Shown here piece by piece: positions 17,977 to 41,570 of a stretch of 64,000 bases of DNA. The notes under the pieces are model-generated. The model had not been told where the DNA came from and did not search any database. It saw only the letters and a program-made list of their open reading frames with translations. Position 1 is the stretch's first letter; each line of letters begins with the position of its first letter. This DNA comes from an uncultured Clostridia bacterium. GTDB lineage: Bacteria; Bacillota; Clostridia; UBA1381. The translations under genes and the position numbers were made by a program. The stretch lies in the NCBI GenBank assembly GCA_947623955.1, contig CANQIP010000002.1, forward strand, positions 1 to 64,000, in the 5' to 3' direction.

Positions 17977-19917
17977 TCACGTAACGCCGCGGTAGAAGTG
18001 ACCCCTCGTGAAGGTGTTTTCCGGCGGAGCGTCAAGCTTTTCCCCGTCCGCGAACGCGCGTTTGTACTCATCTATTATTTTAACACATTGTGAGAAATTT
18101 TCAACAGTAAATAACAATCTCACACAATTTATTTTCAATCTTTTTATATCCTCCGCTTTATCAGCCATGTAAATCGGCACGGAATTTAACAGAACCGCCT
18201 TGCACTTTCCCCTCTCGCCTTCGCAGATAATCGGCATAACGCGCCTTTTTCTGTCGCGCAGACTGTATACCTGTTTCCCGTTCTGACATTTTCCCTGCGC
18301 GTTTACGGGGCAGTTTTTCATCACCATAAGCGGCATTCTACCGTAAGCGATTACCTCGGTCTCCGCGTTTGTGTACCGTAAAAGTTCCTCGATTTCACGC
18401 AGATTAAGTTCCGGCGACAGCGTGACAACGCCGTTTTTTGAAAGGTAATCGACCGTGAGCGAGTTGCAGACGTTTAGTGTCCCCGAAAACGGTCTGAACC
18501 TCTCAACCTTTATGCCCGCCTCCTCCGCTGCCCGCCGCTGCTCGTCGGTCGTGACGTACGCGGCAAGCTCGATTTTAGCGGGTGTTTCGCGCTCGCATGA
18601 CGGCACGGCGTAATCGTTCACGCGCCCCTTTTCACGCTTTACCCTCACGTCCGCGAGCATTTCCGCCGCCTTACGCCTAACTGCGTTTATCTCCTTGATT
18701 GGCAGCGTAACGCCCTTGTCAGCCGTTACCGATATGTCACGGCATAAAAACGGCGTCGAACCGAGTTTTAAAAGCTGCGCTTTCAGCCTGTCCGCACCAA
18801 GCGGCGCGTTTACTGCTTTTTCGGATTTTAGTGTCCCCACTGCGCGTACTCTCCTGCCCTCGCCGTCGGAAAAATTCACTTCAAGCGGCGAGCCGAGTTT
18901 TAGTGTCCCCGTTATGTCAACGCCTATCTTCCTTACATTCGCATTTTCGGCGCACCGTTCCTCAATGTCACGCGTATATTTAGTGTCCCCCGTACCCGAC
19001 GGCGACGCGTAACTCATCATGTCCGCGCCAAGCTTATTTTTGAAATAACCGTCCGTAAAGCCCGACCTTGAAAACGCGTCGGTGAGAATTTGCATATCCT
19101 CTTTCGTAACTTTAGTGTCCCCATGCTCTTCAAGCAAATCGAGATACTTCCTGTACACGCCGACGACAGCCGACACGTACTCCGCGCGTTTTAACCGCCC
19201 CTCGATTTTTAGCGACGTAACTCCCATACGTTTTAGTGTCCCCAATTCGTCTATGAGAGCCATATCCTTCGGCGATAGCAAATAACCGTTTTTTAAACTT
19301 TTGTGTCCCTCGCAAAGCTCGTAAGGGAGGCGGCACGGCTGCGCGCACGAACCTCTGTTGCCACTCCTGCCGCCGAGTATGCTCGACATAAGGCACTTAC
19401 CGCTGTAGCATTGGCATATTGCGCCGTGTACGAACACCTCTATCTCAATCGGCGACATGCGGCATATATTCTCTATCTCACCTCGGCTCAATTCCCTCGC
19501 AAGCACAACGCGCGAAAATCCGAGACGCGCAAGTTCCTTTACCTCGTCAGCCGTCGTCACGGACATCTGCGTGCTGGCGTGGAGCGTGAGGTCGGGGCAG
19601 GTATTCTTTATAATCTCCGCCGCGCCCAAATCCTGCACGATAAGCGCGTCCACACGCGCGTCGTTAAGCTCCTTAACGAACGTTTGCAGCTCTCCGATTT
19701 CGCGCTGCTTTACGAGTGTGTTGACCGTCACATGCACCTTAACGCCGTACAGGTGGCAGTAATCGGTCTGTTCTTTTATTTCGTCGGCGGTAAAATTCTG
19801 CGCCGCACGCCTTGCCCCGAAACTTTTTCCGCCTATATACACCGCGTCCGCGCCCGACTGCACCGCGGCGCGCACAGCCGCCCCGTTTCCCGCCGGCGCG
19901 AGTAATTCTATAGCCAT
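17977..19917 (-). CDS. U32-family (collagenase-like/RlhA-type) protein with DUF3656
   Basis: 646 residues. The U32 core spans about 1-290: ELLAPAGNGAAVRAAVQSGADAVY, VFVHGAICQCYSGKCLMSS, GNRGSCAQPCRLPY and SLKIEGRLKRAEYV, with the conserved cysteines that mark a probable Fe-S site. A DUF3656-like region and a second U32-like half follow. Relatives act in tRNA/rRNA hydroxylation (TrhP, RlhA) rather than proteolysis. TAATG overlap with zapA shows coupling. Peculiar: six exact copies of GGGGACACTAAA lie in its coding strand, read as GTLK, GTLN or GDTK. Confidence 0.9.
   Translation of the reverse strand: MAIELLAPAGNGAAVRAAVQSGADAVYIGGKSFGARRAAQNFTADEIKEQTDYCHLYGVKVHVTVNTLVKQREIGELQTFVKELNDARVDALIVQDLGAAEIIKNTCPDLTLHASTQMSVTTADEVKELARLGFSRVVLARELSRGEIENICRMSPIEIEVFVHGAICQCYSGKCLMSSILGGRSGNRGSCAQPCRLPYELCEGHKSLKNGYLLSPKDMALIDELGTLKRMGVTSLKIEGRLKRAEYVSAVVGVYRKYLDLLEEHGDTKVTKEDMQILTDAFSRSGFTDGYFKNKLGADMMSYASPSGTGDTKYTRDIEERCAENANVRKIGVDITGTLKLGSPLEVNFSDGEGRRVRAVGTLKSEKAVNAPLGADRLKAQLLKLGSTPFLCRDISVTADKGVTLPIKEINAVRRKAAEMLADVRVKREKGRVNDYAVPSCERETPAKIELAAYVTTDEQRRAAEEAGIKVERFRPFSGTLNVCNSLTVDYLSKNGVVTLSPELNLREIEELLRYTNAETEVIAYGRMPLMVMKNCPVNAQGKCQNGKQVYSLRDRKRRVMPIICEGERGKCKAVLLNSVPIYMADKAEDIKRLKINCVRLLFTVENFSQCVKIIDEYKRAFADGEKLDAPPENTFTRGHFYRGVT
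18473..19243 (-). repeat. Six copies of GGGGACACTAAA inside the U32 gene
   Basis: Exact copies of the 12-mer (coding strand GGGGACACTAAA) start at plus-strand positions 18473, 18827, 18899, 18979, 19111 and 19232; a degenerate seventh lies near 19299. All have the same orientation and are read in two frames, GTLK/GTLN (GGG ACA CTA AA) and GDTK (GGG GAC ACT AAA). See the intergenic copies at 32249 and 38410 and those in the M14 gene. Confidence 0.9.
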
Positions 19918-20420
19918 TACTGCTTGTCTATCAAATCGAGAAAGTCCTGCTCGCGCTTTCTGTCGCGCTCTTCAAGCTCTGCGATTTTTTCCTTTAAACT
20001 CTTTACCTGTCCTTCGAGGAATTTAATTTTATTGTTCGCGCTGCTCAGTTTTTCGTTCGCGTCGCTCACCTCGGCACGCATGGCGGCCTCGTCAATCGAA
20101 ACTTGTCCGCTTTTAACCATGTCAAGCTCTTCCTGCGCACTTTCCGCCTCGCGTTCAAGCCTGCCGTTTTTCTCTTTAAGCTCGGCAGTCTTTTCTTTCA
20201 GGGCGTCGTTGTTTTCAAGCTGCTTATAGTACTCGTCACAGATGTTGAGCGCGGCGAGAACAAGCGGACGCTCGCCCATTATGTTCTGTCCTCCCCGCAA
20301 AACGTTTTCCACCTTCTCGTTCACGTGCGCGCACAGCTTTTCGAGGTATTCGGTCGTCTCCTCGGCAACGACCGTGTAACTGCGCGAATTTATTGTGAAG
20401 GTTATCTTATTTACGGACAT
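19917..20420 (-). CDS. zapA: Cell division protein ZapA with long coiled-coil tail
   Basis: 167 residues. The N-terminal ZapA domain (1-75) shows KITFTINSRSYTVVAEETTEYLEKL and GGQNIMGERPLVLAALNICDEYY. It is followed by an extended coiled coil (about 75-165, heptads rich in E, K, L) that is longer than in typical ZapA (about 90-100 residues). Promotes FtsZ filament bundling. AAGGAGG lies 8 bp before the ATG. First gene of the shape/division cluster. Confidence 0.9.
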   Translation of the reverse strand: MSVNKITFTINSRSYTVVAEETTEYLEKLCAHVNEKVENVLRGGQNIMGERPLVLAALNICDEYYKQLENNDALKEKTAELKEKNGRLEREAESAQEELDMVKSGQVSIDEAAMRAEVSDANEKLSSANNKIKFLEGQVKSLKEKIAELEERDRKREQDFLDLIDKQ

Positions 20421-20531
20421 TTGCAGACCTCCTTGTCCAAAATATGCCTATTATATATATTATTATACAATAAAACGCACGAAAAAAACAGTACTTTTTT
20501 ATTTTGTTGTCAAAATGTTTTGAAAACGCAA

Positions 20532-20555
20532 AAAAGAGCGCCTAAGCGCTCTTTT
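20532..20555 (-). terminator. Terminator of the oligosaccharide-binding protein gene
   Basis: AAAAGAGCGC/GCGCTCTTTT stem, loop CTAA, T runs on both sides; 18 bp beyond the stop of the solute-binding protein and upstream of zapA. Confidence 0.88.
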
Positions 20556-20573
20556 AATTTTTGTTTTTAAGCA

Positions 20574-22211
20574 TTAGTCGCGGCTGTAGCTTATACCGTC
20601 CACAATCTTAACGCCTCTCTGGTTTGCGTCGTCGATCATACTCTGCTTTGTCTCCTGAGCAACCGTATCAACATCGAATGAACTGTTAATTTCATCAACA
20701 ACGTCGTAACCGCCCATGTCGAGCCATCTCTGGATTTCAGTCTTGTAAGCGTCGAGACTGATCTGACCTACGCAGTACTTAGCCTTCGCGTTAGCCATAA
20801 TATCGTCAAGCGTCGTGCCTCTTCTGGTCTGCGTCGGCGATACGTAAGGCTCAGCCGGGTTAGCAACCGCCCAAAGCTTGTTATCGGCGTAAACCGCATC
20901 AACCTTCTCGGCAACAACAGCAGCCGAATCGTTGTACTTCGTCTTAAAGCCGTTCTCGAACGATACTATACCCATTGAAAGCTGGTTAAGGTCGTTAATC
21001 TGAGCCTGAAGCGCACTATCGTCAACCTTCTCCGCATAGCTGCCGTCAACCACATTGTAGTGAACGCCTTCAATACCGTAGTTCATCATGTTTACAGCTT
21101 CAAGGTCGTTCAGGTGATCCATTACGCCAAGCATGAAGTTGCGCTGCTCTTCCGTCGGAAGCGCGGGCGTCGGCAGTACATAGAAACTGTCGTAACCGGT
21201 TGTCGGCAGTGTTCTCTTGGGCGACTCGGCGTCCTTCTTAACATAACCGAATACATCAACTACCGCGTTTTCCTGACCCTCAACTTCCACGATATTCTGA
21301 GCGAGTCTTCTTGAACGGTCGGCAACGTCAATGATTATGCCTGCTTTTCCGTTGAGGAAGTCCTCGTTCCATTTGCCGTCCGGAAGCGAAGCCATGTTCT
21401 GGTTTATGTAGCCCTTGCTGTACCAGTCGTGAATCATGTCCATAGCCTCGATATACTGGTCAAACATGAACGACGGAGCAAGCTTGCCTGTCGCGGGGTC
21501 AATGCCCCAAGCGTTCGGCGCGCCGTTCCACAATGCGAGGTTATCAAGCGGACCCTGGAGGTATGTAGAAATAATCATACCGTATGTATCATCCACACCG
21601 TTGCCGTCCGGATCCTCCTCCGTGAAACGTCTCATAACTCTGTCGAGATCCTCAAGCGTCTCGGGGATAGGCTCGCCAAGCTTGTCGAGCCAGTCTTTTC
21701 TGATTGATATACCGGCACGTCCGAGCTCTCTGGATCTGTAAATGCCGTAGTTGTCACCGTCAATCGAGATGTTTCTGTTTATAAGTTCGCTCGACTGCTT
21801 AAGGTTTTCATACGGGCTATCGGGCGCAAACGCGTCCGTAATATTCCAGAATATACCCTTTCTCGCGGCAACGATAACGCTCGAATTTCTCGTACTTACG
21901 AGCATTGCGTGCGGGTAAACGCCCGAACCCATTGTCGTAACGGTCTTTTCGTTGTATGTGGCGCTCGGCGCCCACTTCAGATTAAGCGTCAAGCTGTTTA
22001 CGCCCATCTTCTCTGCGAGGTAATTTTCAAGCTCCTGTACAACGGGGCTGCCCTGTCCCGCGGACGTCGCGTTAAATGCTTTGCAGAGAATATCTATCGT
22101 CGGGTTTTCACCGTCTATGGGCTGTGTCTGCTTGCCGCAGCCCGCAAGCGCGCCGATAAGCATCAGCGACGCGACGGATGCGCAGACAACTCTTTTCAAA
22201 GTTTTTGTCAT
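20574..22211 (-). CDS. Oligosaccharide ABC transporter substrate-binding lipoprotein (LplA type)
   Basis: 545 residues, lipobox ALAGC at the N-terminus. Large family-1 solute-binding protein of the LplA/YtcQ kind, with IRKDWLDKLGEPIPETLEDL and an EF-like loop DPDGNGVDDTYG around residue 215. Such proteins bind pectic or other plant oligosaccharides. Third gene of a permease-permease-binder operon; the multi-use ATPase (MsmX type) is characteristically encoded elsewhere. Next to a GH105 gene, so unsaturated rhamnogalacturonan oligomers are the inferred ligand. Confidence 0.9.
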   Translation of the reverse strand: MTKTLKRVVCASVASLMLIGALAGCGKQTQPIDGENPTIDILCKAFNATSAGQGSPVVQELENYLAEKMGVNSLTLNLKWAPSATYNEKTVTTMGSGVYPHAMLVSTRNSSVIVAARKGIFWNITDAFAPDSPYENLKQSSELINRNISIDGDNYGIYRSRELGRAGISIRKDWLDKLGEPIPETLEDLDRVMRRFTEEDPDGNGVDDTYGMIISTYLQGPLDNLALWNGAPNAWGIDPATGKLAPSFMFDQYIEAMDMIHDWYSKGYINQNMASLPDGKWNEDFLNGKAGIIIDVADRSRRLAQNIVEVEGQENAVVDVFGYVKKDAESPKRTLPTTGYDSFYVLPTPALPTEEQRNFMLGVMDHLNDLEAVNMMNYGIEGVHYNVVDGSYAEKVDDSALQAQINDLNQLSMGIVSFENGFKTKYNDSAAVVAEKVDAVYADNKLWAVANPAEPYVSPTQTRRGTTLDDIMANAKAKYCVGQISLDAYKTEIQRWLDMGGYDVVDEINSSFDVDTVAQETKQSMIDDANQRGVKIVDGISYSRD

Positions 22212-22261
22212 ATTTTAATTCCTCCCTACATAAAAGTCTAATTCCGATTTCACCGACGGGA

Positions 22262-23140
22262 TTAACCCTTAACGGCGCCGACCATCGTACCTGCCGCAAA
22301 GTGCTTTTGCAGGAACGGATATACGCAGAGGATAGGAATTGTACCTATAACGATAACCGCCATCTTCAGCGTATCCGACGGGGGAAGCTCACCCTCCGTC
22401 ATTTCCTCAGCGTTCTGCATTACAAGGCTGCGGAGCACCAGGGTGAACGGATACTTCTTCTGATCGTCTATGTAGATGAGCGATGCCATGTAGTCGTTCC
22501 AGTGACCAACGCCGTAGAACAGGCTGAAGGTCGCAATTACAGGCATCGAAAGCGGAAGCGCTATCTTAAAGAATATTCCTATCTCGGAACATCCGTCTAT
22601 CGCAGCGGCTTCTTCAAGCTCAATCGGGAGACCCATAAAGAAGTTTCTTACAATCAGCATGTTGTACGCACTGATCGCACCCGGAAGAATAAGCGCCGCA
22701 AAAGTGTCATACATTCCCAAGGCTCTTACAACAAGGAAGGTAGGAATCATACCGCCGCTGAATACCATGGTGAACATTACCATTTTAAGTATCGGGCCCT
22801 TACCTACAAGATCTTTTCTCGAAAGTCCGTATGCCATTGTCGTTGTGAACAACATGTTTACGAGCGTACCTACGAGCGTTACGCCGATTGAAACGCCAAG
22901 CGAACGGAATACCGTCGGTCCCATGTCATTCATATCAAATACCTTTTTATACGCCGCGAGCGTAGGCTGCTCCGGCCAAAGGAACAACGGTCTTGTCTGA
23001 ATTTCGGACTCCTTAGCAAAGGATGCCGCAATTACATAGATGAAGGGAATGACCATGAGCAATGCAAGAATGGTCATTACGGCGTATATAACAATATCTC
23101 CGATGAAGTCGCCGAGACTTCTTCTTTTTATACTTATCAT
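22262..23140 (-). CDS. Carbohydrate ABC transporter permease (LplC/YtcP, MalG family)
   Basis: 292 residues with six hydrophobic segments and the EAA loop LEEAAAIDGCSEIGIFFKIALP. The C-terminus KHFAAGTMVGAVKG is characteristic of the LplC/YtcP group. Pairs with the upstream MalF-type permease; 20 bp separate them. Confidence 0.92.
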   Translation of the reverse strand: MISIKRRSLGDFIGDIVIYAVMTILALLMVIPFIYVIAASFAKESEIQTRPLFLWPEQPTLAAYKKVFDMNDMGPTVFRSLGVSIGVTLVGTLVNMLFTTTMAYGLSRKDLVGKGPILKMVMFTMVFSGGMIPTFLVVRALGMYDTFAALILPGAISAYNMLIVRNFFMGLPIELEEAAAIDGCSEIGIFFKIALPLSMPVIATFSLFYGVGHWNDYMASLIYIDDQKKYPFTLVLRSLVMQNAEEMTEGELPPSDTLKMAVIVIGTIPILCVYPFLQKHFAAGTMVGAVKG

Positions 23141-23160
23141 ACTCTCTCGTCCTCCCTTCT

Positions 23161-24156
23161 TTAATAAAGACCTTCCTGACCGGCATGCTTAGCGATAGCG
23201 TTTGCCGACTGGATGAAGATAATACTGATAATTGACTTGAACAATGATACCGCCGTCGTATAACCGTATTCACCGCCTTGCATACCTTGGAAGTATACGT
23301 ATGTGTCGAAGGTCTGGATAGAGTCCGCGTTACCGCTGTTCTTTAACAGGATGAGCTGTTCGTAACCTGTGTTAAGAACGCTTCCCATTCTGAGGATTAA
23401 CATTGTGACAATCGTGCCCGTGATTGCCGGAAGTGTTATGTAGATGAGCTGCTGCCAACGGTTCGCGCCGTCAACTATAGCCGCCTCATACTGTTCTACG
23501 TCAACACCCGCCAAAGCCGCAAGGAAGATGATCGTTCCCCAACCTGTTTCCTTCCAAACATTCTGGAGAAGGACAACCCAATATATTGCAATCTTGTCCT
23601 GCATTATATCGACTCCGTTGCCGCCGTTTAAGGTTTTAACGATTTCGTAGATAGCGCCGCCCGATTCCTTTGCCGCAGGCGCTCTCAAAAGTACGTATGT
23701 AATCGAGAATACGACTACCATAGATACGAAGTGAGGTACGTATACAAGCGTCTGGATAGCCTTCTTGTACCACTGAACCTTCATTTCGTTCAAAAGCAGC
23801 GCCATTATGATCGGGAGTGGGAAGAAGAATATAATATTCATTCCCGAGATTATCAGCGTGTTTCTCAGGAGCATCCAGAAGGATGAGTCCGTAAGGAACA
23901 GTCTGAAGTTCTCAAATCCTACCCAATCCTTTCCGAACTCGGAAAATCCCGGTCCGAAGAACTGGCTCGGCGCATAGTAATCTTTAAATGCGATAAGTAC
24001 GCCGTACATAGGTACGATTTTAAAGATTATGAAATACAAAAATCCGGGCAAGAGTAACAGATATATCCATCTGTCGCGCTTTATCTGCGCCCGTCTTCTC
24101 ACCTTTTGATGTGCTTTCTCCTCGGGAGTAAGCACAATTTTTTGAGCTTTAGCCAT
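23161..24156 (-). CDS. Carbohydrate ABC transporter permease (LplB/YteP, MalF family)
   Basis: 331 residues. A basic cytoplasmic N-terminus precedes YLLLLPGFLYFIIFKIVPMYG, the hallmark of LplB/YteP permeases; the EAA loop is YEAAIVDGANRWQQLIYITLP. First gene of the operon, with GGGAGG upstream of the ATG. Confidence 0.92.
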   Translation of the reverse strand: MAKAQKIVLTPEEKAHQKVRRRAQIKRDRWIYLLLLPGFLYFIIFKIVPMYGVLIAFKDYYAPSQFFGPGFSEFGKDWVGFENFRLFLTDSSFWMLLRNTLIISGMNIIFFFPLPIIMALLLNEMKVQWYKKAIQTLVYVPHFVSMVVVFSITYVLLRAPAAKESGGAIYEIVKTLNGGNGVDIMQDKIAIYWVVLLQNVWKETGWGTIIFLAALAGVDVEQYEAAIVDGANRWQQLIYITLPAITGTIVTMLILRMGSVLNTGYEQLILLKNSGNADSIQTFDTYVYFQGMQGGEYGYTTAVSLFKSIISIIFIQSANAIAKHAGQEGLY

Positions 24157-24259
24157 AGCATACCCTCCCTAAATTTTGTGTGTTTACAACATTTGCGCAA
24201 TCTGCGGAAATCGGGCAATTTGTCCGCAATTTGCACAAAGGTATAAATTCAATAAATAT

Positions 24260-24288
24260 ATTATAGCTCATTTCGGTAAAGATTGCAA
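24260..24288 (-). promoter_or_regulatory. Promoter of the oligosaccharide transporter operon
   Basis: Minus-strand TTGCAA, 17-bp spacer, TATAAT, giving a leader of about 95 nt. The remainder of 24289-24450 is AT-rich with no gene seen. Confidence 0.65.
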
Positions 24289-24454
24289 TAGTTTTTGTGA
24301 AAAAAATGCAATTTTTTTTAAAAAATTTTGTTGTTTTGTATAAATTCACTACCGCGAGCCTTAACATATTTAAAGTGACGTAACTCATGTTACCATAAAA
24401 TAGGCTAAAAAGTCCATAAAAAAACCGGAGGTGTATTGTTAAATTTAACGATAA

Positions 24455-24484
24455 AAAACGGCGGTCTTACAGACCGCCGTTTTT
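24455..24484 (-). terminator. Terminator of the GH105 gene
   Basis: AAAACGGCGGTCT/AGACCGCCGTTTT stem of 13 bp with T runs on both sides, 23 bp beyond the GH105 stop codon. Confidence 0.9.
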
Positions 24485-24506
24485 CTTTGTTTAATTTAAC
24501 CAAAGC

Positions 24507-32248: not shown

Positions 32249-32274
32249 GGGGACACTAAAATTTTAGTGTCCCC
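32249..32274. repeat. Head-to-head pair of the GGGGACACTAAA 12-mer
   Basis: A perfect 26-bp palindrome made of two 12-mers (32249-32260 and 32263-32274), followed by a degenerate half TTTTCGTGTCCCC at 32281-32293. It lies 35 bp beyond the CDF gene stop and could act as its terminator. Confidence 0.85.
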
Positions 32275-32308
32275 TATCAGTTTTCGTGTCCCCATTTTAC
32301 TGTCCACG

Positions 32309-33484
32309 CTACTTCGCGATTTCCGCGAACGAGCGGTCAATTTTAACTTCGCACTGTGCGTCGGGATACCTCACCTTGACTATACTATTTATATGCTCCT
32401 CAATCTCTTTATCACTCTCCGCCATATCCTTCGGCACGGCGCAGTCGAGCCGCACAGTATTGCCGTTCATGCCGAGGTCGTGGACGGTAATTCTTTCATC
32501 AATCTTTTTCATCTCGCCGCAAATCCACTCGCGAAGGCTGCCCATTTCCGAATTTTTCGACGGTATCGGATCGTAATGCACCACCATATGCAGACCGTCC
32601 TTTTCCAGAAAATCGCGCTCCATTTTATCTATTATCTCGTGCATCGCAAGCGGGTCGCCGTCGGCGGGCATCTCCACATGCACGCTCGCGAACTGTCTGC
32701 CCGGACCGTAATCATGCACCATGAGGTCGTGCGTGCCGATAACGCCCTCGTACCGCATTATCCTCTCCTTTATATTCGCGACGGTTTTAGGGTCGGGCGC
32801 TCTGCCCAGCACGGGGTCGAGCGTGTCCTTCGCGGCGAGTATACCACTCACAATTACGAACACCGACACGGCAACGCCTATCCAGCCGTCGAGCGTTACG
32901 CCCCACAGCTTTGAAACAGCCGCGCCCGCAAGTACGGCTAGCGAGCTTATTACGTCATTGCGGCTGTCGGCTGACGTCGCGATAAGCGTTTCGGAATTTA
33001 TTGTTCTGCCTATACACCTGTAAAAAAACATCATCCACAGCTTGACGAGTATCGAACAAATAAGTATCACAAACGTCAGCGCGGAAAAGCTTACGGCTGC
33101 GGGGTGTATGATTTTGCCCACGCCCTCACGTAAAAGCTCCACGCCGATAACTATAATCATCACCGCGACGATGATACCCGCAAGGTACTCGTACCGTCCG
33201 TGACCGTAGGGATGCTCGCTGTCAGCCGGACGCTGCGACAGCTTAAAGCCGAAAAAACTCATTACGCACGTTGACGCGTCGGAAAGGTTGTTCACCGCGT
33301 CGGCGATTACCGACACCGAGCCGGCGAGTATGCCCGCAAGCAGCTTGAACGCGAAAAGAAGGACATTGCAAACAATGCCCGCAATACCCGCGAGCAGCCC
33401 GTAAGAGCCGCGCACGCGCGTATCCGAAACGTCGCCGTAATTTTTCACGAACCGTTTTATGAGAAATGAAGTCAACATTGTCAC
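32309..33484 (-). CDS. Cation diffusion facilitator, probable Mn(II) exporter
   Basis: 391 residues. Six transmembrane segments occupy about 28-205, followed by a cytoplasmic dimerisation domain (about 210-300) and an extra C-terminal ferredoxin-like part. The metal site reads Asn65-x3-Asp69 in TM2 (ADAVNNLSDAS) and Asp173-x3-Asp177 in TM5 (ADSRNDVIS): the NDDD set described for Mn-CDFs such as pneumococcal MntE, rather than the HDHD set of zinc exporters. HPYGHGRYEYLAG is the standard TM3 motif. Followed by repeats; no partner gene. Confidence 0.9.
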   Translation of the reverse strand: MTMLTSFLIKRFVKNYGDVSDTRVRGSYGLLAGIAGIVCNVLLFAFKLLAGILAGSVSVIADAVNNLSDASTCVMSFFGFKLSQRPADSEHPYGHGRYEYLAGIIVAVMIIVIGVELLREGVGKIIHPAAVSFSALTFVILICSILVKLWMMFFYRCIGRTINSETLIATSADSRNDVISSLAVLAGAAVSKLWGVTLDGWIGVAVSVFVIVSGILAAKDTLDPVLGRAPDPKTVANIKERIMRYEGVIGTHDLMVHDYGPGRQFASVHVEMPADGDPLAMHEIIDKMERDFLEKDGLHMVVHYDPIPSKNSEMGSLREWICGEMKKIDERITVHDLGMNGNTVRLDCAVPKDMAESDKEIEEHINSIVKVRYPDAQCEVKIDRSFAEIAK

Positions 33485-33617
33485 CCCGCGATATTATTAT
33501 ACTTCCGCGTATTGTAAGTATACCACATTGCGCGCGGCGCGTACAGACAATATTGTTTGCCGAAAAGCAATATCCGTTAAACGCCGCAAACCCGTATCAT
33601 TTATGCAAGTCCTCTCC

Positions 33618-33648
33618 GAATATATCGCCGCGGCGCGTCATATACATT
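33618..33648 (+). promoter_or_regulatory. Sigma-E-like promoter of spoIIID
   Basis: GAATATAT, 13-bp spacer, CATATACATT, close to the mother-cell sigma-E consensus (GAATA / CATACA-T). No sigma-A promoter is seen at this place. In Bacillus spoIIID is a sigma-E gene, so site and target agree. Confidence 0.65.
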
Positions 33649-33670
33649 CTACAGAAAGGTCGGTGGGATA

Positions 33671-33934
33671 ATGAAGAATTATATTGAAACGCGCGCGGTG
33701 GAAACGGCGCAGTACATCATAGAGAATAACGCGACTGTGCGCAGGGCGGCAAAGGTTTTTAACATAAGCAAATCCACGGTACATAAAGACGTTCACGAAC
33801 GGCTCGCGAAAATCAATCCCGCGCTGTATAAGGAGGCACAGCGCGTGCTCGAACAGAATAAGGCTGAGCGCCATATACGGGGAGGTATGGCGACGCGTGA
33901 AAAATACCGCGGGGAAAAGACAAGGAGGGGGTAA
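33671..33934 (+). CDS. spoIIID: Sporulation transcriptional regulator SpoIIID
   Basis: 87 residues. Helix-turn-helix ENNATVRRAAKVFNISKSTVHKDVHERL (about 19-46) followed by INPALYKEAQRVLEQNKAERHIRGGMATREKY, the DNA-contacting basic tail, match SpoIIID. Controls the switch from sigma-E to sigma-K gene expression in the mother cell. Its presence indicates an endospore programme. Monocistronic. Confidence 0.95.
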   Translation: MKNYIETRAVETAQYIIENNATVRRAAKVFNISKSTVHKDVHERLAKINPALYKEAQRVLEQNKAERHIRGGMATREKYRGEKTRRG

Positions 33935-33963
33935 AAGGGCAACCGTCAGCGCCCATGCGTATG

Positions 33964-34069
33964 GCTCCCCTATTAGGGGAGCTGTCACACGTAGTGTGAC
34001 TGAGGGGTTTACTCGCCATATCCAAACCCCTCCGACGCCTGCGGCGCCACCTCCCCTAGTAGGGGAGGC
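33964..34069. repeat. MITE-like repeat, family A/B relative
   Basis: GGCTCCCCTATTAGGGGAGCTG...AGTGTGACTGAGGGGTTT and AAACCCCTCCGACGCCTGCGGCG...CCTCCCCTAGTAGGGGAGGC. Terminal palindromes of about 20 bp with one internal hairpin each; the orientation is opposite to the copies near 46 kb. Confidence 0.7.
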
Positions 34070-34093
34070 TTATGTTTATGGTCTTACACACAA

Positions 34094-34119
34094 AAAATCC
34101 ACCTGTGCAGGTGGATTTT
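34094..34119 (-). terminator. Terminator of the yebC-membrane protein operon
   Basis: AAAATCCACCT/AGGTGGATTTT stem with a GTGC loop, 6 bp beyond the stop codon. Confidence 0.85.
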
Positions 34120-34125
34120 AATTAT

Positions 34126-34428
34126 TTACGCAAACATTGCAATGGTTAGTACCGCGGCGACGGCAATAAACACCACATGCGCCCAGAATATGACGACCGC
34201 CTTATTTTCCGTTTCGTTTTCAAAGCACTGCTTGATTATCTTCACAAGCACGAGAGCCGCGCCGCAAATTACGAGCGGAGCGAAGAAAAATCCGAGCAGT
34301 CCGCCGCCGGCGTTCGTATGCGCGAGAATAAATTTAAGAACGACCGCGTAATACGCGCATCCGGCGACGAGGGCGAATATCAAAAGCCCCCATGTATTTT
34401 TCAGAAGTCCGATTACTTTATTCCTCAT
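34126..34428 (-). CDS. Small three-span membrane protein
   Basis: 100 residues with hydrophobic segments at about 12-33, 46-65 and 76-99 and a charged loop [10 protein letters not shown]. Its start overlaps the end of yebC by 11 bp, so it is translated with it. I do not recognise the family; function unknown. Confidence 0.7.
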
Positions 34429-35149
34429 CAGGCATCTCCCAGTTATGATAAACGTCCTGTACGTCGTCGTTATCCTCCAGCATATCGAGCAGCTTTGTCA
34501 TCGACGCGATCTGTCCCTCGTCGGTAAGCTGCGTCATTGTCTGCGGAACCATGCTGACCTCAGCTGACGAAATCGTGTACTTTTCCGCGAGCGCGTCGCG
34601 AACAGCGCCCATTTCGTTCGGGTCGGTGGTGATTTCGGCGATTTCGCCGTCAACCTCCAAATCCTCCGCGCCCGCCTCCAGCGCGTCCATCGTCACAGTT
34701 TCCTCGTCCAGATCCTCGTCCTCTATGACTATAACGCCCTTACGGTCGAACATAAAGCTTACGCAGCCGGTCTGACCCATGTTGCCGCCGTTCTTGTCGA
34801 ACGCGTGGCGCACGTCTGCAGCCGTTCTGTTGCGGTTGTCGGTAAGCGCGTTGACGATTACCGCCACGCCCGCGGGACCGTAGCCCTCGTAGGTGATGCT
34901 CTCGTAATTCGCGGTGTCATTGTCGCCCGCTGCTTTCTTTATCGTGCGGTTGATGTTGTCGTTCGGCATGTTGTTCGAGCGCGCCTTCGCGATTGCGTCC
35001 TTGAGGCTCGAGTTGTTGTCCGGGTCGGGGCCGCCCGCCTTTACGGCAACAATGATTTCACGCGCTATTTTAGTGAATATCTTCGCTCTCTGCGCGTCGT
35101 TCGCGCCCTTTTTACGCTTTATCGTACTCCATTTTGAATGTCCTGACAT
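34418..35149 (-). CDS. YebC/PmpR-family protein
   Basis: 243 residues, the family length. [28 protein letters not shown] and [28 protein letters not shown] are the invariant N-terminal motifs. Family members act as DNA-binding regulators or help ribosomes translate difficult motifs. Located 150 bp from the divergent ribulokinase gene. Confidence 0.96.
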
Positions 35150-35243
35150 GTTAATTCTCCTTTAAATTTTGTTCATACATGGTTATTTTATCATATCGCG
35201 GCGCATTTTTCAAGTGTTTGTGAAGAAATGTTTTTCCCCGCTA

Positions 35244-35272
35244 TTTACAAAACAAAACACAAATGGTATAAT
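35244..35272 (+). promoter_or_regulatory. Promoter of the ribulokinase-araD operon
   Basis: TTTACA, 17-bp spacer, TATAAT, 33 bp before the kinase start codon. No clear AraR or CRE box was seen. Confidence 0.75.
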
Positions 35273-35304
35273 ATAGAAAAACACGCGAATACAAGGAGGA
35301 AGTC

Positions 35305-36894
35305 ATGGAAAGGATAAAGGGTGAGATATTAAACGGCAAAACGGCGCTCGGTATCGAGTTCGGCTCGACGCGTATAAAAGCCGTACTCGTTGACAGCACG
35401 AACGCGCCTGTCGCGCAGGGCGACCACGAGTGGGAGAACCGTCTCGAAAACGGCGTGTGGACGTACACGCTCGAAGATATACTTACGGGCTTACAGGACT
35501 GCTACGCACACCTCAAAGAAGATGTAAAGTCGCGCTACGGCGTAACGCTCACAAAGGTCGGCGCAATCGGAGTAAGCGCGATGATGCACGGCTACATGGC
35601 GTTTGACGCGGACAAAAATCTGCTCGTTCCGTTCCGCACATGGCGCAACTCCATGACGGCGGACGCGGCGGAAGAGCTCAGCGCGCTGTTCGGTTTCAAC
35701 ATTCCGCAGCGGTGGAGCATAGCGCACCTGTACCAGGCGATTTTGAACGGCGAGGAACACGTCGGACAGATAAAGTACCAGACGACGCTCGCCGGCTACG
35801 TTCATTGGCTGCTCACGGGCGAGTTCGCGCTCGGCGTCGGAGAGGCGTCGGGTATGTTCCCGATTGACAGCAAGACGAAGGATTACAACGAGGTCATGCT
35901 CGAAAAATTCGACAATCTCCCGAAGGTCAAGGCGGCGGGGATTTCCGTGAGAAACATATTCCCGAAGGTGCTTTCGGCGGGCGAAAACGCCGGAACGCTT
36001 ACCGCCGAGGGTGCAAAGTTGCTCGATCCGTCGGGCGACCTCGAAAGCGGTATACCGATGTGTCCGCCCGAGGGCGACGCGGGTACGGGCATGGTCGCGA
36101 CGAACAGCATCACGAAACGCACCGGCAACGTGTCGGCGGGTACGTCGGTGTTCGCGATGGTGGTACTCGACGAGCCGCTTAAAAACGCGTACCCCGAAAT
36201 CGACGTTGTGACTACGCCGTCGGGCGACGACGTGGCGATGGTACACGTAAACACCTGCACGTCCGATCTTAACGCGTGGGTGAATATTTTCCGTGAGTTC
36301 GCGGCGCTGACCGGCACTGATATAAGCATGGGCGAATTGTACGACAAGCTGTACACAAAAGCGCTCGAAGGTGATAAGGACTGCGGCGGACTGCTCGCGT
36401 ACAACTATTTTTCGGGCGAGAACATCACCGATATTCCCGAAGGCAGACCGCTTTTCGTAAGGCTGCCCGACGCGAAATTCAATCTCGCGAACATGATGAG
36501 GACGCATTTGTACGCGTCGATGGCTACGCTGAAACTCGGTATGGATATTCTCGCGAAGGAGAATGTGAAGATAGATAAAATGTTCGGTCACGGCGGTCTG
36601 TTTAAGACGAAGGATGTGGGTCAGAGCTTTATGGCTGCGGCGATGAACTGCCCCGTGTCGCTTATGGAAACAGCCGGAGAGGGCGGCGCGTGGGGTATCG
36701 CGCTGCTCGCGTCGTACATGATAAACGGCGGCGGCAAGACGCTCACCGACTTTTTGAACGATAACGTGTTCGCGGGCGGAAACGTTTACACCCTTGAACC
36801 GAACGCGGACGACGTTAAGGGCTTTAACGCGTACGCGGAAAGATACAGAAACGGTCTTGCTATCGAAAAAGCAGCCGTTGAAAATTTAAAGTAA
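35305..36894 (+). CDS. FGGY-family carbohydrate kinase, probable L-ribulokinase
   Basis: 529 residues. Actin-like ATPase motifs [14 protein letters not shown] (residues 17-30) and [12 protein letters not shown], with [25 protein letters not shown] in the C-terminal lobe. The N-terminal lobe has [14 protein letters not shown] for sugar contact. It lies 12 bp before araD, so phosphorylation of L-ribulose to L-ribulose 5-phosphate is inferred; sequence type is the non-AraB FGGY kinase common in Clostridia. AAGGAGG precedes the ATG. Confidence 0.88.
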
Positions 36895-36906
36895 GGAGAT
36901 TTTATT

Positions 36907-37599
36907 ATGCTGGAGGAACTTAAAAAGCGCGTTTACGAGGCGAATATGCTGCTCCCCAAACACGGGCTTGTGACGTTCACGTGGGGCAACGTCAGCGAAA
37001 TCGACCGAGAGACGGGATATTTCGCGATAAAGCCGTCGGGCGTTGAGTACGACAAGCTTTCGCCGGACGACATGGTTATAATGGATCTTGACGGCAACAA
37101 AATAGAAGGACGGTACAACCCGTCGTCCGACACGGCGACGCATATCGAGCTTTACAAGGCGTTTAAAAACATAGGCGGTATTGTTCACACGCACTCGCCG
37201 TGGGCGACAAGCTGGGCGCAGGCGGGGCGCGACATTCCCTGCTACGGAACGACGCACGCCGATTACATTTACGGCTCCGTGCCGTGCGTGCGCAATCTCA
37301 CGAAAGAGGAGATCGACGCGGGCTACGAGAAAAATACGGGCGTGCTGATAGTCGATTACTTTAAGGATAAGGATTACGAGGCTGTTCCTGCTGTGCTGTG
37401 CAAGAACCACGGCCCGTTTACGTGGGGCAAGGACGGTCACGAGGCGGTGCATAACGCCGTCGTGCTTGAAGAGGTCGCGAAAATGGCGGTGCATACCGAG
37501 GCGATAAACCCCGACGTAAAGCCCGCGCCGCAAATTCTCCAAGACAAACACTACTACCGCAAGCACGGCGCGAACGCGTACTACGGTCAGGGAAAGTAA
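36907..37599 (+). CDS. araD: L-ribulose-5-phosphate 4-epimerase
   Basis: 230 residues, class II aldolase fold. [13 protein letters not shown] and [17 protein letters not shown] bind the phosphate; the zinc histidines are in [15 protein letters not shown] and the catalytic Asp/Tyr region in [37 protein letters not shown] is the second signature. Converts L-ribulose 5-phosphate to D-xylulose 5-phosphate in L-arabinose breakdown. araA is not in this window. Confidence 0.95.
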
Positions 37600-37616
37600 A
37601 GAAAGGACATAAAAAA

Positions 37617-38390
37617 ATGATTAAAGCTGTATATTCAAGAACACTGATGATATTAAAGAGAATACCCGTAAAGCTGTGGGGGCTTTCGCTCCTTAACGGG
37701 CTTTTGGTGTCGCTGCTGTCGGCTTTCAGCGTAAATCTGCCGTTGGTGACGCTGCCGATAAGCGCCGCGCTTGAGGCGGGTATGATACTGATTTACTACA
37801 TGACGTACTCGACCGGCGACGTGCCCGACTCAAAGCCGATGTTCGCGGCGTTTAAGGATTTCAAGACGTTCAAGCACGTTGCGGGCGGTATGTGCTGGAT
37901 GTATTTGTGGATATTCCTCTGGGGACTTATCCCCGTCGCGGGAGTTGTGCTGGCGGTATACAAAGCGATACAGTACGCGTTCACTCCGTACATTCTGCTC
38001 GAAGAGCCTGAGGTCGGCGCGCTCGACGCGCTCAAAAAGTCCAAAGAGGACACAAAGGGTCTGAAACTTGGCATATTCGCGGGAAGAACGCTGCCGGCAA
38101 TAGCGTGCGTCGTCGTGATTTTGATTTTCGCGGCTGTGGGCGCGCTCGTAAGAGTGCTGACCATACCGTTCGCGATTATCACGGTGCTTTTGACGATTAT
38201 ATTCTCACTGTTTGCGCCGCTGTTTTTCGGACTGGTCGAGGCGGGATTTTACGAGTACGGCAAAAAGCCCGCCGCGAAAAAAGCGGCTGAAACCGCGGCG
38301 TCGCATCTCCCTCCCGTTACCTGCCCCGCGTGCGGCACGGTTAACGTGGGCGGCGAGAAGTTCTGCTCAAAGTGCGGCGGCAAGCTGTGA
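37617..38390 (+). CDS. Multi-span membrane protein with C-terminal zinc ribbon
   Basis: 257 residues. Hydrophobic segments occur at about 22-50, 92-122 and two or three from 158 to 215; the layout resembles YesL/DUF624-type proteins. The C-terminus is a zinc ribbon, CPACGTVNVGGEKFCSKCG (Cys-x2-Cys...Cys-x2-Cys). It starts 17 bp after araD, so co-expression with arabinose genes is likely. Function unknown; YesL relatives accompany carbohydrate loci. Confidence 0.75.
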   Translation: MIKAVYSRTLMILKRIPVKLWGLSLLNGLLVSLLSAFSVNLPLVTLPISAALEAGMILIYYMTYSTGDVPDSKPMFAAFKDFKTFKHVAGGMCWMYLWIFLWGLIPVAGVVLAVYKAIQYAFTPYILLEEPEVGALDALKKSKEDTKGLKLGIFAGRTLPAIACVVVILIFAAVGALVRVLTIPFAIITVLLTIIFSLFAPLFFGLVEAGFYEYGKKPAAKKAAETAASHLPPVTCPACGTVNVGGEKFCSKCGGKL

Positions 38391-38409
38391 TATTTTAAGG
38401 CATATTAAA

Positions 38410-38448
38410 GGGGACACTAAAGTTTTAGTGTCCCCTATTTTAGTGTCT
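38410..38448. repeat. Second head-to-head pair of the 12-mer, with a third partial copy
   Basis: GGGGACACTAAA (38410-38421) and TTTAGTGTCCCC (38424-38435) separated by GT, followed by the partial TTTTAGTGTCTTC. Lies between convergent genes and can form a terminator hairpin in either direction. Confidence 0.85.
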
Positions 38449-38452
38449 TCGT

Positions 38453-38998
38453 TTACGCGTTTTTCATGTCGATATACTTCTTTATAACCTCGATACACTG
38501 CTCCGTACTCATGCCGGCGGTGTTAAGGCACACGTCGTAATTCGTAAGTTCCGACCACCTGTGACCCGTGTTATGCTCGTAGTAGTTGCCTCGCGTTTTG
38601 TTCATGGATCGGATAAGCTCCTTCGCGTCGTCGGGGTTAAGCTCGTACAGCCGCGACACGCGTTTCATGCAGTTTTTTATCGGCGCGTGAAGGTACACGC
38701 GCACCACGCCGTCCATATCTTTAAGCACGTAGTCGGCGCATCTTCCGACTATCACGCAGCTTTCGCGTTCCGCAATTTCGCGTATAAGCTTTGACTGCTC
38801 CTCAAACAGTTTCGCCGACTCTTCAAGAGATGTGTCCTGTATGCTCTCGTCGTCCACCTCGTACGTCTCGTCGCCACGCAGCATTTCGAGTATTTCCCTG
38901 CCGTAATACTTCACGCCGAGAGATTTCGCAAGCTCCTTGCCGATTTCCTTACCGCCGCTGCCGTAGCTGCGGGCGATCGTTACAACTGTTTTTTTCAT
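38453..38998 (-). CDS. Cytidylate kinase-like protein
   Basis: 181 residues from the ATG at 38998 (GAAGGG upstream); a GTG three codons earlier is less likely. P-loop-like SYGSGGKEIGKELAKSLG, then CVIVGRCADYVLKD and the basic KTRGNYYEHNTGHRWSELTNYDVCLNT characterise the cytidylate_kin2/AAK-like family. Probable nucleotide or small-molecule kinase; substrate not certain. Confidence 0.88.
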   Translation of the reverse strand: MKKTVVTIARSYGSGGKEIGKELAKSLGVKYYGREILEMLRGDETYEVDDESIQDTSLEESAKLFEEQSKLIREIAERESCVIVGRCADYVLKDMDGVVRVYLHAPIKNCMKRVSRLYELNPDDAKELIRSMNKTRGNYYEHNTGHRWSELTNYDVCLNTAGMSTEQCIEVIKKYIDMKNA

Positions 38999-39062
38999 GT
39001 AAACCACATCCCTTCGTCGGTGATATAAATTATATATACCACATTTTACGTCGTTTGAAACA

Positions 39063-40598
39063 TTAAAAATTACCGAACACGAACGCGCCGCTATCCGTGA
39101 GCTCGTCCGCGCTTATGCCGTCGGAAACGTTCGCGCCGCCCCTCAGAGCCGCGCTCGTCTCGCTCTTGTCGCAGAGCGACCAGTTCGCCCAGCTTATGCC
39201 GCGCTCGTTCATGAAGTCGATCCACCTTTGCGCCTCGTCAAGGAACACGCCGCCGTTACCGTCAGCCGCGCTCGTTCCCCACTCCGTCACGAACACGGGC
39301 AGTCCGCAGTCCGATATGCGCTGTCTGAGCCAGTCGGTGTGCGTTCCGGCGTAGAAGTGGCACGTATACATTATGTTTTCGCCCGCAAGCGGATCCTTCG
39401 CCGCCTCGTGCAAGTCCTGGCTCCATGTCGGGCTGCCGACGAGTATAATGCCGTTCGTGTTTTGGCGTATCACGGTAATTATTTTTTCCGCGTATGGCTT
39501 AACATTACCGCCCCACGTAACGCCGCCGTTCGGCTCGTTGCAGATTTCGTAAAGCACGTTCGGACTGTCCGCGTAACGTGCCGACATTTCCGCGAAAAAT
39601 TCGGCTGCCGCGTCGGCGTTCGCGAGTGGGTCGCCGTCGGACAGAATGTGCCAGTCGATTATGACGTACATATCCTGCCGTATCGCCGCGTCAACGGCGT
39701 TTACGAGCGTGTTTTTGACCGATTTGTCGGAAAGGTAGCCGCCCTCACCGGTGTACATCGCGCAGCGGAACAAATTCGCGCCGTAGTCGGCTGTCGCCTT
39801 TATCGCGTCCTCGGTAACAAAATTCGGGAACCATTGTAAGCCGTGCGACGACATACCGTGCAGCACGACATTTTCGCCGCGCTCGTTCACAAGGCGCGTA
39901 CCGTCAACATGGAGCGCGCCGTTCTCGCTCACTCCGCCTTTGCGAGCCGTCACGGGCGCGGTCGGCGCGGCGGTGGGTTCTGGAGTGTAAGGCTGCAGAT
40001 TGCCTTTTTTATTCGCGGCGCGCATTATTATGGCGCACGCCTCGGCGCGTGTGATCGGTGATTTCGGGTTCAGGTTGCCCTTATCGTCGCCGTACACAAT
40101 GCCGTTTGAAACCGCCGCAATCACCGCGTCGTAGTACCTTCCGTCAAGCGCGGAAAAATCGGGCGCTTTCGCCGCGTCGTTGTAGTCGCCCTTCGCGTCG
40201 GGCATAAACGCCTTCATTATAATCTTCACCGCAAGCTGACGCGTTATCGCGTCGTCGTACGTTTCGCCTGTGGGCGGTATCTCGTCCCAATCGTAAAAGC
40301 CCTTGTCGAGCGCAGCCTGCATCATCGGCGCAGCCCAGTGGTTCGACTGCGCGGACGTTGACGCGGTAAGGCTCGCAATCCTGCCCGTCACGCTCACAAG
40401 CTCCGCTTTCGTTATAATGCCCGACGGGCGGAACGTGCCGTCCCCGTAGCCCGACAGGTAACCTTGATTTGTCATGTCGGTCACGTTTTCGTAAAACCAG
40501 TCGCCCTCGTTTACGTCCGAAAAACCCGCCGCGCCCGCGCAGGCACACGTAAGCGTCATAAACACGGCTGATAAAATCATGCAGATAAATTTTTTCAT
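39063..40598 (-). CDS. SLH-anchored glycoside hydrolase family 5 (cellulase-like)
   Basis: 511 residues. Signal peptide (1-23), three SLH domains (about 24-195, GYGDGTFRPSGIITKAELVSVTG and GDDKGNLNPKSPITRAEACAIIMRA), a Pro/Thr linker (YTPEPTAAPTAP) and a GH5 catalytic domain (about 220-511). The GH5_2 pattern is visible: LHGMSSHGLQWFP, VIIDWHILSDGDP, the acid/base Glu in YEICNEPNGG, the HFYAGTH motif and the nucleophile Glu in VTEWGTSAADG. Surface endo-beta-1,4-glucanase expected. Confidence 0.93.
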   Translation of the reverse strand: MKKFICMILSAVFMTLTCACAGAAGFSDVNEGDWFYENVTDMTNQGYLSGYGDGTFRPSGIITKAELVSVTGRIASLTASTSAQSNHWAAPMMQAALDKGFYDWDEIPPTGETYDDAITRQLAVKIIMKAFMPDAKGDYNDAAKAPDFSALDGRYYDAVIAAVSNGIVYGDDKGNLNPKSPITRAEACAIIMRAANKKGNLQPYTPEPTAAPTAPVTARKGGVSENGALHVDGTRLVNERGENVVLHGMSSHGLQWFPNFVTEDAIKATADYGANLFRCAMYTGEGGYLSDKSVKNTLVNAVDAAIRQDMYVIIDWHILSDGDPLANADAAAEFFAEMSARYADSPNVLYEICNEPNGGVTWGGNVKPYAEKIITVIRQNTNGIILVGSPTWSQDLHEAAKDPLAGENIMYTCHFYAGTHTDWLRQRISDCGLPVFVTEWGTSAADGNGGVFLDEAQRWIDFMNERGISWANWSLCDKSETSAALRGGANVSDGISADELTDSGAFVFGNF

Positions 40599-40717
40599 GT
40601 AATCCTCTCCTTATATTTACATTCTATCATACTTTTCGGAAAATTTCCATAGCGATATAAATTTATTTGCGTATAGCACGGGAAAACGCGGCATAAAATA
40701 AATAAGGCATCATAACG

Positions 40718-40745
40718 GGGGACACTAAAATAGGGGGACACTAAA
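40718..40745 (+). promoter_or_regulatory. Tandem 12-mers forming the ribosome site of the M14 gene
   Basis: Two direct copies of GGGGACACTAAA (40718-40729, 40734-40745) end one base into the start codon context: AGGGGG, 8 bases, then ATG at 40746. The second copy therefore provides the Shine-Dalgarno-like AGGGGG and the spacing. Confidence 0.7.
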
Positions 40746-41570
40746 ATGGAATACAGTTATTCGCGTCTTTTGGGGGACACTAAAGTTATCTCGGAAAAAT
40801 ACGAAAACGCGGCAGTTTTTAAAATAGGCGAAAGCGTCATGGGGAGAGAGATACTGTGCGTTAAGATAGGCGGGGGACACAAAAAAGTACTTGCCGCAGG
40901 AGCGTTCCACGCGCTTGAATATATTACCGCGGCGTTCCTTGCGAAATTCGCCGAGGAATACGCACGCGCGGCAGAGCGCGGTGAAATGTTCTTCGGGCGT
41001 GACGCGTGTCTTTTGAGTAAAAACGCGTCGCTTTTTATTGTCCCCATGGTGAACCCCGACGGCGTGGAAATCGTTCTGCGCGGCGGGGACACTAAATCGG
41101 TGTGGCAAGCGAACGCGAGGGGTGTGGACATAAATCACAATTTTGACGCGGACTGGCAAAGCGTGAAGGATGCGCCTTCGCCGTCGCTCTACGGCGGCGA
41201 AAAGCCGATGAGCGAGCCGGAAACGAAGGCTCTGTGCGGATTTATAAGGCGCGAGAGGTTCGATATGCTTTTGTGCTTTCACAGTCAGGGAGAGGAGATT
41301 TACTATGACTTTAACGGAAAAACGGCGCCCCGTTCAAGAGAAATCGCGGACGAGATGGCGCGGGAGAGTGGATACAAGGTCGGTGTTCCCGAAGGCAGCG
41401 CGTGTTTCGGCGGGTGTAAGGACTGGTTCATAAACGAGTTCGGGCGTGAAGGGTTCACGATTGAGATGGGCAGGGGCGTAAATCCGCTGCCCGTGAGTAT
41501 GCTCGGTGAGGTTTACGAGCCGAATGCAAGGATCGTTCTGTGCGGTATGGAATGGGCGGTGAGGAGGTAG
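40746..41570 (+). CDS. M14-family zinc carboxypeptidase
   Basis: 274 residues, no signal peptide. Zinc ligands His and Glu in AGAFHALEY, the third His in LLCFHSQGEEIYY, the substrate Arg in NARGVDINHNFD and the catalytic Glu in FTIEMGRG. The family includes gamma-D-glutamyl-diaminopimelate peptidases that recycle wall peptides. Copies of GGGGACACTAAA occur at 40773 (giving GDTKVIS) and 41085 (GDTKSVW), plus a degenerate one near 40873. The latter two coding copies lie in surface segments. Divergent from the GH5 gene. Confidence 0.88.
   Translation: MEYSYSRLLGDTKVISEKYENAAVFKIGESVMGREILCVKIGGGHKKVLAAGAFHALEYITAAFLAKFAEEYARAAERGEMFFGRDACLLSKNASLFIVPMVNPDGVEIVLRGGDTKSVWQANARGVDINHNFDADWQSVKDAPSPSLYGGEKPMSEPETKALCGFIRRERFDMLLCFHSQGEEIYYDFNGKTAPRSREIADEMARESGYKVGVPEGSACFGGCKDWFINEFGREGFTIEMGRGVNPLPVSMLGEVYEPNARIVLCGMEWAVRR
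40773..41096 (+). repeat. GGGGACACTAAA copies inside the M14 gene
   Basis: Exact copies at 40773-40784 and 41085-41096 on the coding strand, both read as GDTK. A degenerate copy (GGGGGACACAAAAA) begins near 40872 and TTTATTGTCCCC, one mismatch from the reverse complement, occurs at 41033-41044. Confidence 0.88.

Follow-up and report, generated by a model that had tools for sequence, protein, structure and literature searches.

A dispersed 12-mer in one family of Clostridia and its candidate partner, a probably catalytically dead relative of RAYT/TIRYT transposases

In this work, we are concerned with the 12-mer GGGGACACTAAA, a word dispersed over a 64,000-nucleotide stretch of DNA from an uncultured Clostridia bacterium (contig CANQIP010000002.1, positions 1 to 64,000; hereafter the window), and with a gene elsewhere in the same genome that is likely to encode its protein partner. 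The window contains 14 exact copies, every one at the coordinate given in the initial annotation, and 17 matches when one mismatch is allowed, against 0.22 expected from 100 shuffles. The grouping described there was found as well: six copies in a U32 gene, all on the coding strand, four at an M14 gene (two sense copies inside and two directly 5'), and head-to-head pairs at gene ends, which are inverted pairs with arms 2 bp apart (32249/32263 and 38410/38424). The features are the following, with exactness in U32 given over 15 orthologues.

17977-19917, minus strand: U32 peptidase-family gene (PF01136 and PF12392), holding six copies
18473-18484, minus strand: 12-mer in the U32 coding sequence, sense, frame 2 (GTLN)
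18827-18838, minus strand: 12-mer in the U32 coding sequence, sense, frame 2 (GTLK); exact in 9/15 orthologues
18899-18910, minus strand: 12-mer in the U32 coding sequence, sense, frame 2 (GTLK); exact in 11/15
18979-18990, minus strand: 12-mer in the U32 coding sequence, sense, frame 0 (GDTK); exact in 5/15
19111-19122, minus strand: 12-mer in the U32 coding sequence, sense, frame 0 (GDTK); exact in 5/15
19232-19243, minus strand: 12-mer in the U32 coding sequence, sense, frame 2 (GTLK); exact in 8/15
32249-32260, plus strand: 12-mer, first arm of an inverted pair
32263-32274, minus strand: 12-mer, second arm; sense, 34 bp 3' of the stop of a minus-strand gene called at 32309-33448
32282-32293, minus strand: one-mismatch copy GGGGACACGAAA; its counterpart in genome G008 is exact
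38410-38421, plus strand: 12-mer, sense, 3' of the stop of the plus-strand gene 37617-38390; with the next copy it forms an inverted pair, flanked by convergent genes
38424-38435, minus strand: 12-mer, partner arm; sense, 3' of the stop of the minus-strand gene 38453-39007
40718-40729, plus strand: 12-mer 5' of the M14 gene, sense
40734-40745, plus strand: 12-mer adjoining the M14 ATG, sense
40746-41570, plus strand: M14 zinc carboxypeptidase gene
40773-40784, plus strand: 12-mer in the M14 coding sequence, sense, frame 0 (GDTK)
40873-40884, plus strand: one-mismatch copy GGGGACACAAAA in the M14 coding sequence, sense
41085-41096, plus strand: 12-mer in the M14 coding sequence, sense, frame 0 (GDTK)

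The genome to which the window belongs (G000: 2.13 Mb, 56 contigs, 87.6% complete) has 106 exact copies in all and none of the reversed control; the copies are heavily clustered in few genes with long gaps between, at a density of 106 per 2.1 Mb. The word is present in 16 of 16 genomes of the genus, G000 included, with 8-151 copies each, and for this reason the assembly artefact which the initial annotation had listed among its alternatives is very unlikely. Among the sampled genomes in the rest of the family, genera g4, g6 and g11 carry 7-45 copies, g10 carries 2-53 and other genera 0-5, one of 24 genomes from other families of the order has a single copy, and a class-wide survey of 391 genomes gave 1-2 copies in 16 of the 376 outside the family. 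Enrichment of the 12-mer is limited to one family of Clostridia. Among the named close relatives of the U32 gene, four belong to metagenome-assembled genomes (MAGs) of uncultured Clostridia bacterium, isolates 'Lapin', a name which we take to mean rabbit. As a separate observation, the window, other G000 sequence and G008:C3 abound in a longer repeat that contains CCCCTAGTAGGGGAGCTGTC and ACCCCTCAGTCA, and its 12-mer AGGGGAGCTGTC has at least 25 copies in G000 and at least 10 in G008.

The U32 and M14 genes lie on opposite strands and both carry sense copies, thus orientation tracks transcription, not replication. With gene calls made by codon usage, copies in coding sequences came to 170 sense and 12 antisense, orthologues being counted separately (154/7 in the first loci, 10/3 in further loci and 6/2 in G025). 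Contiguous sequence from four species, 473 kb in all, contains 88 copies: 66 sense and 0 antisense in coding sequences, 11 sense within 60 bp 5' of genes (8.5-fold), 9 sense within 60 bp 3' of genes (6.7-fold) and 2 elsewhere. Frame 1 of the word contains a stop, which leaves two sense and two antisense frames open, and protein tolerance estimated from BLOSUM predicts a sense excess of merely 1.1-2.7 to 1. A REP (repetitive extragenic palindromic) element was rejected, as the 12-mer has neither a GTAG-type tag nor an internal hairpin and 39 of 100 G000 copies were called in coding sequence, not extragenic. A DNA uptake sequence (DUS, or the similar uptake signal sequence, USS) kept by biased transformation would also be a short exact word overlaid on coding sequence, with inverted pairs at gene ends and exact copies far exceeding near matches, but the strong sense bias of 66 to 0, the sparse clustering in few genes and the presence of the word in the promoter of a protein gene make this explanation scarcely credible.

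The mismatch spectrum was taken over 334 kb of G000 sequence, mostly loci picked for holding copies, and consists of 100 exact, 29 one-mismatch and 19 two-mismatch words, compared with 0, 0-5 and 12-42 for three control words; 12 of the 29 one-mismatch words have A at position 1. Between G007 and G011, 23 of 24 aligned copies are exact, where the flank identity of 0.91 would lead one to expect about a third (0.91^12). When the U32 genes of five close species are compared, none of the 18 fourfold third positions inside the 12-mer varies and 130 of the 238 outside it do (p = 1.5e-6), and over all positions 1 of 72 varies inside against 462 of 1866 outside. Bases beside the word show mild preferences only, such as A at position 13 in 96 of 147 coding-sequence copies.

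How the word came to lie on coding sequence was followed closely in one gene, U32. Four of its six G000 sites are gap-free across the 12 columns in all 15 orthologues, two of these four having codon gaps nearby. Of the other two, the one at alignment column 816 shows no gap in G004 or the close species, but it falls in a loop which nine of the 15 orthologues have in a shorter form, and at column 1661 the alignment is unreliable. Some sites are common to species about 63% identical in protein and others are private to a species. Where an orthologue lacks the 12-mer, its bases there are either unrelated, with as few as 4-7 of 12 matches at gap-free sites, or a near-miss, which in some cases is synonymous. 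We read the U32 sites as probable substitution under selection, not insertion. The initial annotation had proposed that copies overlay existing alignment positions, which holds at four of the six sites and is unclear at the loop and at the poorly aligned one; the selection for a sequence motif that it considered is supported by this overlay, by the exactness between G007 and G011 and by the frozen fourfold positions. Its template overwriting or gene conversion is unsupported and was rejected, since no long shared stretch is seen in the flanks of the copies compared. Writing by a reverse transcriptase or group II intron was discarded too, with no RVT_1 match in G000, G008, G010, G011, G003 and G014.

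A REP element spread by a RAYT-type transposase had likewise been suggested. Pfam alone did not lead to a partner: PF01797 matches did not track the 12-mer across genomes, and a single G000 protein over the Y1_Tnp cut-off (C2:84565) carries GTAG-type, GTAGGGGCGAAC-type REP-like units with no 12-mer near. A RAYT-like frame of 192 aa with NHIH kept (L036:526-1101, G000:C2, minus strand) contains two GTAGGGGCGAAC...GTTCGCCC REP-like units within its own reading frame, in opposite orientations. The RAYT idea was revived when a relative lacking the HUH pair was found with the 12-mer upstream. Its gene lies outside the window (G000:C4:85031-85546, minus strand), is single-copy in G000, has 12-mer copies directly upstream and encodes a protein of 172 aa that starts MARQAREVSKSGNYYVSLRGN.

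Homologues of this protein occur in 36 of the 61 genomes searched, including all 16 of the genus, and come in short forms of about 149-204 aa (234 in G027) with a PSWLL-like end and long forms of about 242-277 aa with an LSVWLL-like end. The protein keeps the N-terminal Y1-like domain, and in the window's genus a lysine-rich tail ending LPSWLL or LPTWLL replaces the C-terminal half of its relatives. A WLL-like end is kept across short and long forms and is possibly a protein-docking tail. Pfam Y1_Tnp and NCBIfam REP_Tyr_transpos are each matched by 6 of 14 family members (best 4e-8 and 5.5e-7, respectively). The HUH pair (HxH) is kept in 2 of 51 aligned members and the full triad H,H,Y in one (G029), compared with 6 of 6 genuine relatives taken as a comparison set; such genuine relatives occur in the same bacterial family, in G002, G021, G078 and G083. 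With up to two mismatches the 12-mer stands upstream of 14 of 15 partner genes and within 200 bp downstream of 0 of 15, a search limited to the 12-mer; the gene is not bounded by it on both sides, unlike RAYT/TIRYT transposase genes. Taken by homology, the protein would be a catalytically dead RAYT/TIRYT relative and is the likely partner of the word. The suggested kind of protein was thus right, but spread by a working transposase is unsupported, because the partner lacks the catalytic residues and the alignable U32 copies are not insertions.

The repeats flanking TIRYT genes that are described in PMC3733652 share GGGGWSAS, which GGGGACAC fits. This resemblance, the homology of the partner to RAYTs and the inverted pairs at gene ends would all suit a fossil repeat family, in which an earlier active TIRYT or RAYT spread REP- or TIR (terminal inverted repeat)-like copies that are now decaying. 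However, four of the six U32 sites bear no mark of insertion (the remaining two are unclear), 100 exact copies to 29 with one mismatch is no spectrum of decay, the synonymous positions within the U32 copies are frozen, and the same gene has different sites in different species, so that we regard such fossils as highly improbable.

The partner gene has the word in its own promoter. In 36 of 47 genomes a T-run and then (G)TGTCCC, which is the reversed 12-mer, lies upstream of it near a -10-like box, two of these sites having one base off in TGTCCC. The spacing to the box is 13-14 bp in 29 genomes, where the reversed 12-mer occupies the place of the -35, or 24-25 bp in 7 genomes, in 5 of which TTGNAA follows it. 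Since the scan took the best -10 within 10-28 bp, the evidence is the uniform spacing and not the presence of a -10. A site at a fixed place in the own promoter is as found for autoregulated DNA-binding regulators, and the two spacings, about one helical turn apart, suggest binding to duplex DNA in phase with RNA polymerase. Beyond the site lies a divergent neighbour, by our reading the gene of a P-type ATPase. All 15 genus members inspected have it, as do most of the other genomes that carry the site; in G017 and G086 the site is present and the neighbour looks different. Downstream of the partner gene there is often a conserved neighbour, presumably polysaccharide-deacetylase-like judging by its peptides. 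Promoter use of the dispersed copies was rejected: a -10 at the scanned spacings accompanies 6 of 194 (one of them the partner's own promoter), against a background of 48 in 3298.

These promoters also bear on the main rival, according to which the protein recognises the word as RNA, or as non-template strand laid open in the transcription bubble, and has its effect while transcription runs or afterwards, for instance on termination, on translation or on mRNA stability. It would be in keeping with the mostly sense placement of the copies across leaders, coding regions and 3' ends, with a promoter copy that reads in sense for the divergent neighbour as well, and with the strand-specific binding of single-stranded DNA by TnpA-REP proteins described in PMC8266576. 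It does not account well for the constant distance to the -10, whose two classes differ by one helical turn, for the persistence of the promoter site in G017 and G086 next to a different-looking neighbour, or for antisense copies that two species share at equal offsets. In folded mRNA the word was no more accessible than with codon-shuffled flanks, which 83 of 147 sites exceeded (p = 0.40), a null result that lends RNA binding no support without excluding it. We consider this rival unlikely, if still worth serious attention.

Co-occurrence of word and protein was tabulated by hand for 89 genomes with a threshold of at least 7 exact copies, which is reached by 26 of 27 short-form genomes outside genus g15, 0 of 10 short-form g15 genomes, 0 of 15 with the long form and 1 of 37 with neither form; g15 was set apart after the data were seen, and counting it in gives 26 of 37 short-form genomes against 1 of 52 others. 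Variants of the word were counted as well. GGGACAYWAAAA exceeds its control in several family genomes poor in exact copies (e.g. 14 vs 5 in G017 and 12 vs 1 in G028) and is not above it in others (8 vs 8 in G019, 3 vs 8 in G021), nor outside the family. GGGACACAAAA stands at 38 vs 4 in four g3 genomes, 48 vs 3 in four g1 genomes and, less enriched, 51 vs 19 in eleven g15 genomes, and is not enriched in five genomes of another family (8 vs 12). The partner promoters of g15 and g3 carry GGGACACAAAA-like words, which together with this enrichment suggests related dialects of the word in these two genera.

Alternatively, the word could be the regulatory site of another factor, with the dead transposase as one target that co-occurs by ancestry. 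Co-occurrence is indeed partly phylogenetic, g15 breaks the pattern, and G062 has copies and no gene found; against this, the site stands in the partner promoter across genera, even in many with few exact dispersed copies, and the repeats of the protein's own family in PMC3733652 resemble the word. On balance another factor seems improbable.

The explanation we favour, held tentatively and at close to an even chance, is that GGGGACACTAAA is the DNA recognition site of a domesticated, catalytically dead RAYT/TIRYT (Y1, HUH) relative which acts as a polar transcription regulator. The link between the 12-mer and the partner protein is well supported; that the protein binds the word itself, and that it affects RNA polymerase, is what we infer from it. 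The protein would bind its own promoter at or just 5' of the -35 region, which implies self-regulation. At most dispersed sites, in 5' leaders, in genes and just after stops, the GGGG end points towards the oncoming RNA polymerase, and at the partner's own promoter it likewise faces the polymerase, a common polarity that favours a DNA-bound polar regulator. Once bound, the protein could block the polymerase in one direction or help termination at 3' ends, and attenuate transcription in leaders and genes, with sites that would arise by point mutation and be kept by purifying selection, not by transposition. In its specific form, a dead Y1 transposase as polar, sequence-specific controller of elongation or termination, with 12-bp sites written by point mutation across the genome into leaders, coding sequences and 3' ends and almost always sense, the proposal appears possible and stops well short of probable.

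Several observations weigh against a DNA-bound regulator of this kind. Eleven of 47 promoters lack a site whose distance from a -10 falls within the scan, although in two of them (G019 and G061) an upstream near-match escaped the -10 filter, and the promoter site might serve the divergent neighbour instead. The G000 protein alone matches no Pfam family (E 0.1), nor REP_Tyr_transpos, and the profile search hits no solved transposase. A GGGGWSAS-like word is absent within 250 bp of the genuine relatives in G002 and G021 and from the locus in G078, and the genuine relative of G056 has near-fits only (GGGGTGAT, GGGGTCAT). The 89 genomes share ancestry and are not independent, so the association is partly phylogenetic; the 10 sampled g15 genomes with the short form have just 0-5 exact copies, G062 has 17 copies and no homologue found (a MAG 88% complete), and G002, G009 and G013 have the protein yet only 8-13 copies. 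Antisense copies are real; G000 and G003 share two, with identical offsets of 327 and 452, in genes which we take to be trpC and trpA.

As regards the genes that carry copies, a functional regulon was rejected: of the 26 G000 genes that have a copy within them or immediately 5', 20 were scanned, leaving aside genes with downstream copies alone, and no common theme is apparent. A putative operon that we take to be for cobalamin (L149-L150, L153-L154, L037-L039, L042) holds dense copies in several species. In G011 the flanks of the copies are closer to genus g4, with identities of 0.74 and 0.71 over 4 copies each, than to two members of G011's own genus, G003 (0.68) and G014 (0.66), over 13 copies each, which hints weakly at transfer. 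Genes resembling phage head or tail genes carry sense copies in L050 (G014) and L194 (G009), and a hypE-like and a hypD gene together carry six (L032, G000:C25). One of the latter sits where HypE proteins naturally have GDTKV, so the 12-mer can ride on a conserved peptide.

If the favoured explanation is true, a relative of the HUH-family transposases has lost its chemistry and kept what looks like the ancestral recognition word, and its dispersed sites constrain both amino-acid and synonymous codon choice in metabolic genes (cobalamin, hydrogenase maturation, tryptophan and U32, labels that are partly our own reading of the peptides). It would be an unusual tamed transposase with a transcription-oriented network of sites, a bacterial directional roadblock descended from a mobile element. 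A concrete protein-site pair is thereby offered for testing. Our literature search did not find the 12-mer in any paper of the collection searched, and, judged by titles and the beginnings of abstracts, nothing describing an HUH-less RAYT/TIRYT regulator.

Among known systems the nearest are the TIRYTs, to which the subclass 2.1 transposases with a C-terminal helix-turn-helix (PMC6006769) probably correspond. The Y1 domain is homologous and GGGGACAC fits the motif of their flanking repeats, but the RAYTs and TIRYTs aligned in PMC3733652 keep HUH and the catalytic tyrosine, which are lost here in nearly all members; the short form moreover has no C-terminal region, the 12-mer was not found downstream of the gene, and the alignable U32 copies are not insertions. 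With the RAYT-REP pairs of PMC2817692 and PMC8266576 our system shares a Y1-derived protein paired with a short dispersed sequence, whereas the tabulated REPs form palindromes, most of which bear a tag, GTAG or GTGG. The 12-mer has neither such a tag nor a hairpin of its own and often lies in coding sequence. DNA uptake sequences are overlaid on coding sequence, form inverted pairs at terminators and are sharply exact, and they have no fixed gene orientation and a wide, even spread. The 12-mer is like them in the overlay, the inverted pairs at gene ends and the exactness, and unlike them in being transcription-oriented, clustered, sparse and tied to a gene with the word in its promoter. More distant parallels are TldR, a nuclease-dead mobile-element protein acting as an RNA-guided regulator, and the polar terminators Reb1 and TTF-I, in which a DNA-bound protein acts polarly on RNA polymerase; the proteins are unrelated and TldRs are guided by RNA, and the likeness lies in the dead-element regulator and in the proposed polar action.

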